From: Chloroflexota bacterium | GTDB lineage: Bacteria > Chloroflexota > UBA6077 > JACCZL01 | NCBI GenBank assembly: GCA_020850535.1 | Contig: JADZEM010000168.1 | Span: 1 to 50,920, forward strand | DNA: 50,920 nt | Reading direction: 5' to 3' | Shown: piece by piece, positions 44,046-49,625 of the stretch | Numbering within the stretch: position 1 is the stretch's first letter | Layout: each line of letters begins with the position of its first letter | Notes under the pieces: generated by a model | Told to the model about the DNA's origin: nothing | Databases searched by the model: none | Seen by the model: only the letters and a program-made list of their open reading frames with translations | Program-made: the position numbers and the translations under genes

Positions 44046-44759
44046 CTACGCGCCGACCGCCTTGACGATCAGCCGGTCCAGGTACTCCCTGCGCGAGGCC
44101 ACGAACTCGCCGCCACAGGTGATCAGCGTGACCGTCGGCATCGGGGTCGGTGCGAAGATCTCCTCGACCGGCGCCCCCTCAGCCCGCACCCAGTGCGACG
44201 ACTTCACGACGTACTCGAAGCCACGTCCCTCGGCGTCGATCACCTGGACAACGTCGCCCGGCTCAAGCTGATGCAGCAACCCGAACGGGCGCAGCCGATT
44301 GTCCCAGTTGACGTGCGCGGCGAAGACCACGTTGCCTGGCACGCCCATCCCTGGACTGCCCGCGTACCAGGCGACATCGTCCGGGTCGGTAGGGGTGGCC
44401 ATCGCGCCGTCCGCTTCCTGGCCGACCGCTTCGACGACGGCCTCAACCCCGAGCGCCGGAATCGTCAGCTTGACGGGCGTCACCCCGAGCACCACCGGCG
44501 TCGGCGGCTCGGGCGCCGCCATCGTGCCGTCGTCCTCGTCCGGGTCCATCACGACCAGCTCAGACGGCTCCGTCAGCGGATCGTTCCCGGTCACCAGCGG
44601 GAGTCCGGGCACCGGGGGGTCGGGCAGCGGCGTCTCGGCGTCGGGGCCAGGGGCCTGCGCCCCGACCATTTGCGGCAACGCGGCCAGCCAGATGGCGAGA
44701 CCGCCGGCCACGACAAACCCCCGGGCGAGCGCCCGGCGGCGAGGAACGCGCGACGACAT
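44046..44759 (-). CDS. Sortase (class E/F-like)
   Basis: 237 residues. N-terminal signal anchor (about 11-34), acidic/Pro-rich spacer to about residue 85, then the sortase barrel starting LTIPALGVEAVVEAVG. The catalytic triad is present: H149 (FAAHVNW), C215 (TLITCGGEF), R223 (ASRREYLD). Sortases join surface proteins to cell-wall or pilin nucleophiles in monoderms. The class F/E type fits WYAGSPGMGVPGN. No LPxTG-type substrate or pilin is visible in the window. Its ATG overlaps the regulator's TGA (TGATG), so expression is tied to the WYL protein. Confidence 0.88.
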   Translation of the reverse strand: MSSRVPRRRALARGFVVAGGLAIWLAALPQMVGAQAPGPDAETPLPDPPVPGLPLVTGNDPLTEPSELVVMDPDEDDGTMAAPEPPTPVVLGVTPVKLTIPALGVEAVVEAVGQEADGAMATPTDPDDVAWYAGSPGMGVPGNVVFAAHVNWDNRLRPFGLLHQLEPGDVVQVIDAEGRGFEYVVKSSHWVRAEGAPVEEIFAPTPMPTVTLITCGGEFVASRREYLDRLIVKAVGA

Positions 44760-45412
44760 CAGGCGTCGGCTGCGAGCGTCACCGCGGTCACGGCGTCGAG
44801 ATTGAACATCATGGTGCGGCTGCGCTGCTTGCAGTCCCCGATCAGGTACCAGGAACTCAGATACGGGAGCAGCAGCTCAGGCCGGACCACCGGCTCGGTG
44901 ATCGGCGAGGACATGTCGCCCGGCGGGTAGTGCAGCTTGACGTAGGTGCCGCGCAACAGGCCGTCTGCCAGGGCAGCGAAGACCTGCTGCTGCTGGCCGG
45001 AGCGCGGCGCAGTGACCGCCTCCAGGGTCCGCTGCACCAGCGGCTGAAGGTGAGCCGGGAACATGGCCGGCAGTTTCCGCATCAGCGAGCCGAGCCGGTC
45101 CGAGGGGATCGAGCGGTCCTTGGTGGCCTGCCGCAGGATCATCACCAGGAGCTGCGCTTCGCGCAAGTCGAAGCAGCCCTCACCGCCGCCGCCGTTCTTG
45201 CCGCCCTCGGCCACGAACCGGTAGCCCTGCCGCCTGACGAGCGGCAGCCGCATGTCGGTGCGGATGATGTTGAGGTCTGCCTGAACCTGCCGCTCACTGA
45301 GATGGAACTTGTCCGCGAGCTCGCGGCGGCTCTTGCCAGGAGTCTCGGCGATATCCTCGACGATATGCCAGATGCGCCGAAAACGGTCCGCAACAAGCCG
45401 CTTACGTTCCAT
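44759..45412 (-). CDS. WYL-domain transcriptional regulator (YafY-like)
   Basis: 217 residues. N-terminal winged helix (about 10-65: GKSRRELADKFHLSERQVQADLNIIR), a middle linker region, and a C-terminal WYL-like domain with YVKLHYPPGD, PELLLPYLSSWYLIGDC and MFNLDAVTAV. WYL domains often sense small ligands, and many such regulators control stress or defence genes. The family usually has about 300 residues, so this is a short variant with the C-terminal extension missing. It overlaps the sortase start, is upstream of it in the operon, and probably controls it. Confidence 0.82.
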   Translation of the reverse strand: MERKRLVADRFRRIWHIVEDIAETPGKSRRELADKFHLSERQVQADLNIIRTDMRLPLVRRQGYRFVAEGGKNGGGGEGCFDLREAQLLVMILRQATKDRSIPSDRLGSLMRKLPAMFPAHLQPLVQRTLEAVTAPRSGQQQQVFAALADGLLRGTYVKLHYPPGDMSSPITEPVVRPELLLPYLSSWYLIGDCKQRSRTMMFNLDAVTAVTLAADA

Positions 45413-45775: not shown

Positions 45776-46705
45776 ATGAAGCTGAGCGTGGTCGGTGGAG
45801 CGGGCCGGGTTGGCTCAACCACCCTGTTCCAGCTCGTTCTCGAAGGCGGCTTTCAAGAACTTGCGGTGTGCGATATCGCCGGTGAGGCCGCCGCCGGCGA
45901 GGCCCTTGACCTCCGCCATGGCCTTGCCCTCTCCCACCGTTGCGACATTACGTCCGGCGGCATCGAGGCCAGCGCCGATTCAGACTTTATTGTGATTACG
46001 GCGGGCATTCCACGGCAACCGGGCGAAACCCGGCTCGACCTATTGAAAAAGAATGTCGATCTGATGAAGGGCGTGCTCGAGCAGGTCACCAGGCACAGTA
46101 AGAACCCCTACATCATTATGGTGGCCAACCCGGTCGACGTGCTGACCTATCAGGCGATCACCACCACCGGCCTGCCGGCCGGCAAGGTCATCGGCACGGG
46201 CACCCTGCTCGACACCACCCGCTTCCGCTCCCTGCTGGCCGAGCGCCTGGGCGGCGTCACGCCGGACCAGGTCTACGTCTACATGCTGGGCGAGCACGGC
46301 GACAGCCAGGCTCCGGTCACCAGCATCGGCACCGTCGCCGGTATGCCGCTGCGGCAGTACCCGGGCTTCAGCGAGCAGGCGCTGGCCGAGGTCATCGAGG
46401 GCACCCGCTTCGGCGGCGCTGAGGTCATCAAGCGGAAGCGCGGCACGTTCTACGCCGTGGCCCCGATGATCGTGCAGTTGATTCGCTCGATCCGCCTGGA
46501 CGAGAAGCGCATCCTGCCGGTCTCCGTCCGCATGGACGGCAGCTACCTCGGCATCAAGGACGTGGCGCTGTCGATCCCCTGGGTCATCGGCAAGGACGGT
46601 CCCGAGACGCCAATCCATCTTCCGCTCGACGAGAGCGAGCAGAAGGCGCTCCTCGAATCAGCCCGCATCCTGCGAGGCGCCCTGGACGAGGTCGGGCTGA
46701 AGTAG
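45776..46705 (+). CDS. mdh: Malate dehydrogenase (LDH-like type)
   Basis: 309 residues. NAD-binding GGAGRVGSTT, specificity loop AGIPRQPGETR with R80 at the substrate-selecting position (Arg in malate, Gln in lactate dehydrogenases), VANPVDV, GTLLDTTRFR and catalytic H174 in LGEHGDS. The sequence around the loop is lactate-dehydrogenase-like, as in Chloroflexus-type malate dehydrogenases. Interconverts malate and oxaloacetate in the TCA cycle. GGAG precedes the ATG. A perfect hairpin spans the stop codon, so the following gene may be separately transcribed or attenuated. Confidence 0.93.
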   Translation: MKLSVVGGAGRVGSTTLFQLVLEGGFQELAVCDIAGEAAAGEALDLRHGLALSHRCDITSGGIEASADSDFIVITAGIPRQPGETRLDLLKKNVDLMKGVLEQVTRHSKNPYIIMVANPVDVLTYQAITTTGLPAGKVIGTGTLLDTTRFRSLLAERLGGVTPDQVYVYMLGEHGDSQAPVTSIGTVAGMPLRQYPGFSEQALAEVIEGTRFGGAEVIKRKRGTFYAVAPMIVQLIRSIRLDEKRILPVSVRMDGSYLGIKDVALSIPWVIGKDGPETPIHLPLDESEQKALLESARILRGALDEVGLK

Positions 46706-46831: not shown

Positions 46832-48514
46832 ATGGCTACGGTCGAGCAGCAGTCATTTCACTTCCCCGAGCCAACGGTCCCCGATGATGTTGAGTGGCCT
46901 GGAACGCCCATCGGCGCGGCCAACGTCCTGACCCGGACGAAGGCCCGCACCAACGTCCACGACAAGGCGATTGACGCCAAGCCCGGCCGCTACGAGGAGC
47001 TGCTGGCGTCCGTCAGGGGCTACATGGCCTCTGCCGACGGTCAGGCCGCGACCCGGATCCATGATGTCGTCGTTCACGGCATCCGCGTCCGCGCCCACAC
47101 GAACTCGCCGCACCTGATCGACTTCTGGGTGGACAACTGGTTCTCACCCGACGAGTGGAAGGCCGCCACCGGGCGGGACGCGCCGGCCGAGCCACAGGTG
47201 ATGGTGTACGCCTTTGGCGGCATCGCCGATCAGCCGGAAGCAGCCTACTACAGCCGCCGCCACAACGCGGTGATCTTCTTCAACACCTCGTATTACGGGC
47301 AGTTGAAGAGCTGGGTGCTCGGCTCAGTGGGCCGGGTGCTGGCCGACGAGTACGGCATTCACTCCTTGCATGGCGCGGCCGTCGAGCTGTCCGGCAAGAA
47401 GGGCGTCCTCTATATCGCCGCCACCGGCACCGGCAAGTCGACCAGCTCGTACGGGCTGATGAAGTTCGCGAACACTCGCTTCCACTCGGATGACTGGGTC
47501 TACGTCCGGTACGTGTTCCAGACGAAGGACGGAAAGCGCGTCGGCCCGCGCCGCATCGACGCGCCCGAGGGTCCGGTCCTGGGCTATCGCTGCTTCCGCT
47601 GGCTGGAAGAGCACCCGACCGCCGATGTGCCGATGGTGGCGCTCACCACCGACAACGAGGAGCTTCAGCTTCGGACGACGGATCTCGCGCTTGACAAGGG
47701 GATTGAGGCGTACACCTACATCTCTGAGAAGGTGTTCTACCTCCGCACCAACCTGGTCGAGAACTTCCCCGAGTCCGCGCTGAGCATCCTCGAATCGAAG
47801 AAGGAGAACGTCCCGGATATCTCGCCAGCCTTCCTGGCGGAGCACCAGAAGCTGCTCGACAACGTCACGCAACTGGTGATGAACGCCGATCACGAGCCGA
47901 CGCGCCGGCACTTCCAGTCACTCGGCCCCGAGCGGACGCGCACCATCATGGGTCGGCTGTTCGCCTTCGACAACGCCCGCGCCATGCTGGACGTGACCCC
48001 GGTCTTCGGCAAGGAGCGCGTCTTCACGAATCCACTGGAGCCACTCTTCGTGACCAGCGTCTTCCTGCTGAAGCGTGACTTCAGCGAGGATGTGGTGCTG
48101 GAACGGCTGCCGCTGGCAACCTTCATGGAGCGGCTGCTGATCGGGCTGACGCCGGCCGGCACCCGGGAGATCGCCTACAACAACTACCGGGCCACCGACG
48201 ACACGTCGGAGCGGGCGTTCATCGCGCAGGTCGAGGGGGAGACGAAGGCGGCCGGCCAGCCGCTCTACCCGACCCTGATCGAGCGGCCCGAAGTCCCGCC
48301 GACCCTCCTCGAAGAGTTCGAGCTGTTCCGCGCCATGTACCAGGCCGCTGCCTGCTACTCGCTGAACACGATTCTCCAGAAGGATCCGGCCATCGACGAC
48401 AAGATGACGGCGGTCCGTCTGACGATGGACCTGATCGCCACGGCTGTCGAGGAGCGGCCCGAGGAGCTGAACCTCAGCATCTCGGATTACCGGTCGTTCA
48501 TCCCGTCCGCCTGA
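46832..48514 (+). CDS. P-loop protein of HPr kinase/PEPCK-like fold, unnamed
   Basis: 560 residues. In the centre: IHSLHGAAVELSGKKGVLYI, then Walker A A197-T-G-T-G-K202-S203-T204, then FHSDDWVYV with H218, D220 and D221. The order strand, Walker A, paired acidic residues about 20 later is that of HPr kinase/phosphorylase and PEP carboxykinase P-loops (GTGKST; ADD). The N- and C-terminal thirds (about 1-150, 300-560) match nothing that I recognise; the whole is longer than HPr kinase (about 310) and close to ATP-type PEPCK (about 530) in length. It lies between mdh and isocitrate dehydrogenase, so a role with oxaloacetate or in sensing carbon flux is plausible (inference). GGAG lies seven bases before the ATG. 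Confidence 0.75.
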   Translation: MATVEQQSFHFPEPTVPDDVEWPGTPIGAANVLTRTKARTNVHDKAIDAKPGRYEELLASVRGYMASADGQAATRIHDVVVHGIRVRAHTNSPHLIDFWVDNWFSPDEWKAATGRDAPAEPQVMVYAFGGIADQPEAAYYSRRHNAVIFFNTSYYGQLKSWVLGSVGRVLADEYGIHSLHGAAVELSGKKGVLYIAATGTGKSTSSYGLMKFANTRFHSDDWVYVRYVFQTKDGKRVGPRRIDAPEGPVLGYRCFRWLEEHPTADVPMVALTTDNEELQLRTTDLALDKGIEAYTYISEKVFYLRTNLVENFPESALSILESKKENVPDISPAFLAEHQKLLDNVTQLVMNADHEPTRRHFQSLGPERTRTIMGRLFAFDNARAMLDVTPVFGKERVFTNPLEPLFVTSVFLLKRDFSEDVVLERLPLATFMERLLIGLTPAGTREIAYNNYRATDDTSERAFIAQVEGETKAAGQPLYPTLIERPEVPPTLLEEFELFRAMYQAAACYSLNTILQKDPAIDDKMTAVRLTMDLIATAVEERPEELNLSISDYRSFIPSA

Positions 48515-48518
48515 CCAC

Positions 48519-49625
48519 ATGGGTACGTCGTCGCCGGGAGCGAAGGTGAGCCATCGCGTCACCCTGATCCCCGGCGACGGCACCGGCCCCGAGATCATGG
48601 CCGCCGCCCGGCGCGCCATCGACGCCACCGGCGTCAGCATCGACTGGGAGGTGCAGACGGCCGGCGCCTGCGTCCTCGCCAACGAGGGCACCTCGCTGCC
48701 GAATCGGGTGCTGGACTCGATCAAGCGGAATCACGTCGCGCTCAAAGGACCGATCACCACCCCGATTGGCAAGGGGTTTCCCAGCGTCAACGTGGCGCTC
48801 CGCAAGGCGCTCGACCTCTACGCCAATCTGCGGCCCTGCAAGACCTACCGAGGCGTTCGCACCCGTCACGACAGCGTTGACCTCGTGGTGATCCGCGAGA
48901 ACACCGAGGATGTCTACGTCGGCGCGGAGCTCGGGTATGACGACCCGCGCATGCCACGCCTGCTGGACGCCCTGCTGGAGGCCGGCGCGCCGCCGCTGGC
49001 GCCGCAATCCAGCGTCTGCCTCAAGGCGATCTCAGTGGAGGGCAGCCGCCGCATCATCCAGTTTGCGCTGGAGTACGCCCGCGCCAACCGCCGCCGCCGC
49101 GTGACGCTCGTCCACAAGGCGAACATCATGAAGGTGACCGACGGCCTGTTCCTGCGAATCGGCCAGGAGCTTGCGCGGTCCTACCCTGACCTCGACGTGA
49201 ACGACATCATCGTTGACAACATGTGCATGCAGCTGGTCCAGAAGCCCGACCAGTACGACGTCCTGGTGATGCCGAACCTCTACGGCGACATCCTCTCGGA
49301 CCTGTGCGCGGGACTGGTCGGCGGGCTGGGCGTCGTGCCTGGGGCCAACATCGGCAAGCTCGGGGCCGTCTTCGAACCGATCCACGGCAGCTCCCCGAAG
49401 TACGCCGGCCAGAACAAGGTCAACCCCAGCGCCGCCATGTTGTCCGGGGTGATGATGCTGCGCTATCTGCGCGAGTTCGAGGCCGCCGCCCGCCTCGAAC
49501 GGGCCATCGCGCGGGTCATCGCCGACGGCAAACGGGTCACCTACGACCTCAAGCCGCGCCCCAACGATCCGTCGGCGGTGGGCACGTCGCAGTTCGCTGA
49601 CGCCGTCATCGACGCCATGACGTGA
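48519..49625 (+). CDS. Isocitrate/isopropylmalate-type dehydrogenase
   Basis: 368 residues of the beta-decarboxylating dehydrogenase family. LIPGDGTGPEI, the substrate site SVNVALRKALDLYANLRP, VIRENTEDVYVG, VHKANIMK, MPNLYGDILSDLCAGLVGG and EPIHGSSPKYAGQNKVNP. The NVALRKALDLYANLRP segment and ENTEDVYVG point to NAD-dependent isocitrate dehydrogenase rather than isopropylmalate dehydrogenase. Converts isocitrate to 2-oxoglutarate. ATG 48519 begins four bases after the P-loop gene stop; GTG 48546 has a better ribosome site (GGGAG, five bases) and is a real alternative. Third gene of the mdh cluster. Confidence 0.9.
   Translation: MGTSSPGAKVSHRVTLIPGDGTGPEIMAAARRAIDATGVSIDWEVQTAGACVLANEGTSLPNRVLDSIKRNHVALKGPITTPIGKGFPSVNVALRKALDLYANLRPCKTYRGVRTRHDSVDLVVIRENTEDVYVGAELGYDDPRMPRLLDALLEAGAPPLAPQSSVCLKAISVEGSRRIIQFALEYARANRRRRVTLVHKANIMKVTDGLFLRIGQELARSYPDLDVNDIIVDNMCMQLVQKPDQYDVLVMPNLYGDILSDLCAGLVGGLGVVPGANIGKLGAVFEPIHGSSPKYAGQNKVNPSAAMLSGVMMLRYLREFEAAARLERAIARVIADGKRVTYDLKPRPNDPSAVGTSQFADAVIDAMT

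Follow-up and report, generated by a model that had tools for sequence, protein, structure and literature searches.

A divergent PEPCK-superfamily protein beside TCA-cycle genes as a probable replacement for canonical PEP carboxykinase in several bacterial phyla

The window, i.e. the whole stretch of 50,920 nt of a Chloroflexota genome that was analysed, contains an open reading frame for a protein of 560 residues, denoted PK below, that lies between two genes of the TCA cycle. This arrangement raises the question of which step of central carbon metabolism, if any, the protein performs. The three genes are the following:

45776..46705, + strand: mdh, lactate/malate dehydrogenase family (Pfam Ldh_1_N/C), upstream of PK
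46832..48514, + strand: PK, divergent PEPCK-superfamily protein of 560 aa, ORF with ATG start
48519..49625, + strand: icd, NAD/NADP isocitrate dehydrogenase family (Pfam Iso_dh, E 4e-100)

The initial annotation had placed a 560-residue protein with a Walker A motif (ATGTGKST, residues 197-204) and the motif FHSDDW (residues 217-222, with the DD pair at 220-221) between mdh and icd, and the ORF as well as the Pfam matches of both neighbours agree with this description. The mdh-like gene ends 126 nt upstream of PK, and icd, for which the top NCBIfam models are isocitrate dehydrogenases, starts 4 nt past the PK stop codon. The upstream gene scores near both the L-lactate dehydrogenase and the malate dehydrogenase models of NCBIfam, slightly higher for the former, and its motif AGIPRQPGETR has an Arg at the MDH-specific position, as in malate dehydrogenases. 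It is likely to encode a malate dehydrogenase and to be misnamed by automatic annotation. Upstream of mdh, a WYL-domain regulator with an HTH adjoins a sortase-domain protein (44759-45412 and 44046-44759, both on the - strand), and the same pair is found upstream of mdh in the nearest relative of this locus (L001).

In searches with the single protein, no Pfam or NCBIfam model was above threshold, and the plasmid search gave no match. The scores for Pfam PEPCK_ATP (PF01293; 10.7 bits, E 0.21) and Hpr_kinase_C (12.3 bits, E 0.12) are below the curated cut-offs of 26.5 and 33.3 bits, respectively. The NCBIfam matches, to a PEPCK subfamily model and to HprK-related kinase A, were also sub-threshold, and a single-sequence search of the PDB yielded one weak, sub-threshold PEPCK match around the P-loop.

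Relatives of PK were present at 52 loci in genome contigs, 49 of which encode a long form and three a short form of 357-409 aa without long inserts (L050, L051, L052). Most long forms show 49-74% identity across the full length, and about 60 columns are invariant when 43 sequences are aligned; together with the number of loci, this argues that the ORF is not a chance occurrence. The long form is found in Chloroflexota, Acidobacteriota, Armatimonadota, Sysuimicrobiota/ANGP1, and a few others, the short form in Dehalococcoidia, Omnitrophota, and Myxococcota. In the protein tree, Acidobacteriota and Armatimonadota form one group each, and Chloroflexota are split over several. The carriers comprise 46 genome entries. 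Six of these were duplicates, as judged by contigs with identical positions or sizes, which leaves about 40 distinct genomes; about 37 have the long form.

The initial annotation had read the two motifs as the layout of either HPr kinase or PEPCK and had left the other two thirds of the protein unplaced. The AlphaFold model of PK is confident (pLDDT 94.5, pTM 0.92), and its best 50 matches in the PDB are all PEPCKs, with E-values down to 1.6e-14, TM values of about 0.49-0.58, and alignments of 529-684 columns. ATP-PEPCKs (PF01293, EC 4.1.1.49; PDB 1xkv, 1ayl) come first, followed, from rank 36 of these 50, mainly by the GTP type. Only PEPCKs of giant viruses were matched in a viral fold library. 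The short-form model (pLDDT 83) has TM values of 0.64-0.70 to E. coli PEPCK when normalised by its own length. PK thus shows the fold of the ATP/GTP-type PEPCK superfamily across its N- and C-terminal domains, and the formerly unplaced regions are PEPCK-like as well, because the model matches PEPCK along its whole length. HPr kinase was absent among the best 50 matches of the long-form and the short-form models alike. The PEPCK part of the earlier reading was therefore upheld; the assignment of PK as an HPr kinase was rejected on the basis of the Pfam score, the fold ranking, and the domain layout. PK shares with HPr kinase/phosphorylase (PF07475) and HprK-related kinase A (TIGR04352) a stretch of about 50 residues, in which a His-Gly is followed by the P-loop and DD, but the rest of PK is PEPCK-like. 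Two more Hpr_kinase_C-like proteins are encoded in the window genome (L054:1237-2214, +, 326 aa; L055:916-2100, +, about 395 aa); they resemble stand-alone HprK-related kinases and are unrelated to the mdh-icd locus.

A PEPCK fold could also be that of a PEPCK-derived protein kinase/phosphorylase that acts like HPr kinase and switches carbon flux by phosphorylating a neighbour such as isocitrate dehydrogenase (cf. AceK). After PEPCK, the strongest single-domain signals indeed come from Hpr_kinase_C and from HPr kinase chains around the P-loop, and icd is the adjacent downstream gene in the window. Nevertheless, we regard this alternative as unlikely, given the fold ranking and the retention of the PEPCK N-terminal region and of the YxGxxK and NxR motifs in PK.

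Sequence profiles also link the family to ATP-PEPCK. With the long-form profile, the P-loop half alone aligned to the ATP-PEPCK profile (residues 43-206, E 2e-9), while the alignment of the short-form profile spanned 313 columns and reached the C-terminal NTG motif (E 3e-12). A combined ATP and GTP PEPCK profile (A4) retrieved two short forms at E-values of 8e-6 and 3e-5, with the database size set to 5000. No similarity was detectable between the PK profile and that of GTP-PEPCK (PF00821, EC 4.1.1.32), which has the superfamily fold in common with PK but differs in its P-loop (FPSACGKT versus TGTGKST). Beyond the P-loop and DD, the motifs Y154-x-G-Q-x-K159, H180, E299-x-x-F-Y-L-R305 (ExxCYAK-like), E325-N-V, N381-x-R383, and N512-T513 (the NTG motif of ATP-PEPCK) occur in PK in the same order as in ATP-PEPCK, as seen with simple regular expressions, which miss some true sites. 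PK and ATP-PEPCK share only about 12-14% identity in the structural alignment, and the long form has an extra segment of about 60 residues that follows the DD motif.

A residue map in E. coli PEPCK numbering was built from the sequence profiles and the motif order; functional roles are given as for the E. coli residues. The following positions correspond:

Retained (E. coli PEPCK = PK): Y207=Y154, K212=K159, H232=H180, K254=K202, D268/D269=D220/D221, R333=R383
Substituted (E. coli PEPCK = PK): K213=S160, S250=T198, T255=S203, K288=R305

All mapped PK columns, S160 and N512-T513 included, are invariant in 43 of 43 sequences, as are TGTGKST and SDDW, which conform to the ATP-PEPCK P-loop GxxGxGK[ST] with DD. 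The substrate residues Tyr207 and Arg333 align by profile with Y154 and R383, and E. coli R65 tentatively corresponds to R39, likewise invariant, on the basis of motif spacing and a weak match of an N-terminal-only profile to ATP-PEPCK (prob 14). The Mn-ligands of ATP-PEPCK are Lys213, His232, and Asp269; PK has kept the latter two as H180 and D221, but has Ser160 instead of the Lys, which is invariant in 13 aligned ATP-type PEPCK sequences. Together with the score below the Pfam cut-off, this residue test implies that PK does not belong among the ordinary ATP-PEPCKs. The structure of an E. coli PEPCK K213S mutant (PDB 2py7) is among the listed fold matches of PK.

The loss of K213 bears on three other readings. 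It fits a kinase, as HPr kinase is likewise without this Lys. It is also the sole point in favour of a catalytically dead PEPCK paralogue with a structural or regulatory role in partnership with TCA enzymes. We consider this highly improbable, since nearly all other catalytic residues are invariant in 43 of 43 sequences from several phyla, as is typical of an active enzyme. Lastly, the altered metal ligand and the long-form insert might indicate a carboxykinase-like enzyme for another substrate at the same node, e.g. another 2-oxo or hydroxy dicarboxylic acid. This is improbable as well, in that the residues with which PEPCK holds oxaloacetate/PEP, namely R333, Y207, and probably R65, have invariant counterparts in PK.

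Two further groups of divergent sequences were observed in Chloroflexota. One is a subgroup of ATP-PEPCK (L087, L088, L089; about 240-250 bits), the N-terminal motif of which, NVQTRVVSRS, has a spacing like NVLTRTKART of the PK family; it is a possible intermediate. The other is a PEPCK-like protein (about 596 aa) that two genomes encode (L091:200-1987, -, and L092:611-2392, +; G030 and G042), with the motifs YQGECKK, GLTGSGKST, and NDD and just 40-44 bits to PEPCK profiles. It represents a separate divergent group that has kept the Lys pair, and its comparison with the PK profile gave nothing useful.

The gene neighbourhood was compared across the family, and the mdh/icd context turned out to be conserved in a part of it, as the initial annotation had proposed to check. 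MDH and/or ICD homologues are encoded at no fewer than 14 of the 49 long-form loci; the true number may be higher, because many contigs end close to PK. The arrangements are:

mdh-PK-icd: L001, L038
PK-icd-mdh: L004, L007, L009, L013, L027, L028, L045
PK-icd: L015
mdh upstream of PK: L002, L003, L030
PK-gltA-mdh: L016

At three loci (L004, L009, L045), the order by Pfam names is gap-pgk-tpiA-PK-icd-mdh-sdhC-sdhD-sdhA, with PK 18-33 nt past tpiA, and a short contig (L007) has the same order from pgk to mdh. This order, PK-gltA-mdh, and mdh-PK-icd are on separate branches of the protein tree. The mdh genes near PK are either 62-77% or about 35% identical to that of the window, and the presence of different kinds of mdh argues that the neighbourhood was assembled more than once. 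In Armatimonadota/ANGP1, the genes downstream of PK are often those for a threonine dehydrogenase-like zinc dehydrogenase and for a protein resembling 2-amino-3-ketobutyrate CoA ligase. The neighbours of the short forms are unrelated, i.e. gyrA, ndk and yicC, and an S49 peptidase.

The neighbours of PK either produce or consume oxaloacetate or belong to the triose-phosphate enzymes, a central-carbon context that is shared with ATP-PEPCK. Oxaloacetate is the metabolite that the neighbours have in common, which speaks against another substrate, although the short forms with their unrelated neighbours suggest functional drift. For the kinase alternative, it is unfavourable that icd is not nearby at many loci, where gltA, mdh, or tpiA is found instead.

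The initial annotation had also suggested looking for PEPCK elsewhere in the genome. In the window genome (7.65 Mb, 96% complete), neither ATP-PEPCK nor GTP-PEPCK, together termed canonical PEPCK here, was found. Canonical PEPCK is absent from 36 of the about 37 long-form genomes, the exception (G076) having ATP-PEPCK in addition to PK. The only GTP-PEPCK among the carriers is in a short-form genome (G098). As the L051 genome has a GTP-PEPCK in addition to the short form, the function of L051 may differ. Full-length PK is encoded in 7 of 61 Chloroflexota genomes, and, with genomes counted as independent and shared ancestry ignored, PEPCK was found in 0 of 7 carriers versus 37 of 54 others (Fisher p 8e-4), and in 0 of 7 versus 15 of 22 within the class (p 0.002). 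In the window's own family, PK occurs in the absence of any PEPCK in one relative (G001), whereas a second one (G002) carries ATP-PEPCK but lacks PK. On the same counting, a second, independent set (81 genomes centred on an Acidobacteria carrier) had PEPCK in 0 of 10 carriers, two of them represented by contig-edge fragments of PK, versus 45 of 71 others (p 1e-4); the contrast was weaker among the nearest relatives, i.e. the first-listed 24 genomes of this set (0 of 10 versus 5 of 14, p 0.047).

The absence of the normal enzyme from almost all carriers of several phyla suggests that PK is probably an overlooked replacement for PEPCK. A regulatory kinase would leave this absence unexplained, and the mutual exclusion also argues against an enzyme with another substrate. 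Nearly all carriers have PPDK/PEP-synthase-type genes, so that PEPCK is not strictly needed in them, and the notion of PK as the sole route to PEP was rejected. In the window genome (G000), seven PPDK_N matches in several long ORFs suggest more than one PPDK/PEP-synthase-like protein.

Taken together, the computed homology, fold, residue conservation, neighbourhood, and mutual exclusion make it probable that PK is a divergent, unannotated branch of the PEPCK superfamily that works as a PEPCK and replaces the canonical ATP- or GTP-dependent enzyme. The initial annotation had offered two examples for its function. A PEPCK-like phosphotransferase is well supported by the full-length fold, the retention of almost all substrate and nucleotide residues, the neighbours, and the absence of canonical PEPCK; the carbon-flux-sensing kinase gained no specific support.

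PEP carboxykinase connects the citric-acid cycle with the synthesis of sugars and sets the PEP-oxaloacetate node. By homology, PK likely converts oxaloacetate to PEP, and the reaction, its donor and direction, and catalysis with Ser are what we infer. Arginines of the R39/R383 type, together with a metal on H180 and D221, would bind oxaloacetate, which would be decarboxylated to the enolate. Phosphorylation of the enolate would then yield PEP, with ATP or a different donor, bound by the P-loop, K202, and R305, as the source of the phosphoryl group. The altered metal site, with Ser at the position of K213, would still support catalysis. Alternatively, PK might catalyse the reverse reaction; in either direction, it would act where the TCA cycle meets the triose-phosphate pathway. 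As nearly all carriers have PPDK/PEP-synthase-type genes, PK would either support growth on TCA intermediates, the role described for PEPCK in prokaryotes that possess PPDK or PPS (PMC8100219), or operate in the carboxylating direction.

The proposed reaction class and the non-canonical nature are shared with PPi-PEPCK (EC 4.1.1.38), a protein about twice as long. That enzyme is described as unrelated to ATP- and GTP-PEPCK (PMC8100219), in contrast to PK, which is homologous to ATP-PEPCK. A recent review lists only the ATP, GTP, and PPi types, and PPi-PEPCK illustrates that there are PEPCKs of non-canonical type that family databases miss (PMC8100219). The PK family is unannotated, and no published description of it was found among open-licence papers. 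No characterised member was found either, including one with an unrelated function, which the initial annotation had named as speaking against its reading.

The balance of the evidence slightly favours the view that PK represents a further PEPCK class, a homologue of ATP-PEPCK in which the metal site has been rebuilt (Ser for the Mn-binding Lys) and perhaps another phosphoryl donor is used, and that canonical PEPCK has given way to this class in lineages of Chloroflexota, Acidobacteriota, Armatimonadota/Sysuimicrobiota, and others. Such a class would be a natural case in which to ask whether catalysis requires the PEPCK metal ligand K213. A further class in place of the canonical enzyme would make a central-carbon step seem absent in annotated genomes. 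If the proposal is true, this apparent gap in central metabolism would be filled for many uncultivated soil and subsurface bacteria, and the genome-based metabolic models of PK carriers would change.
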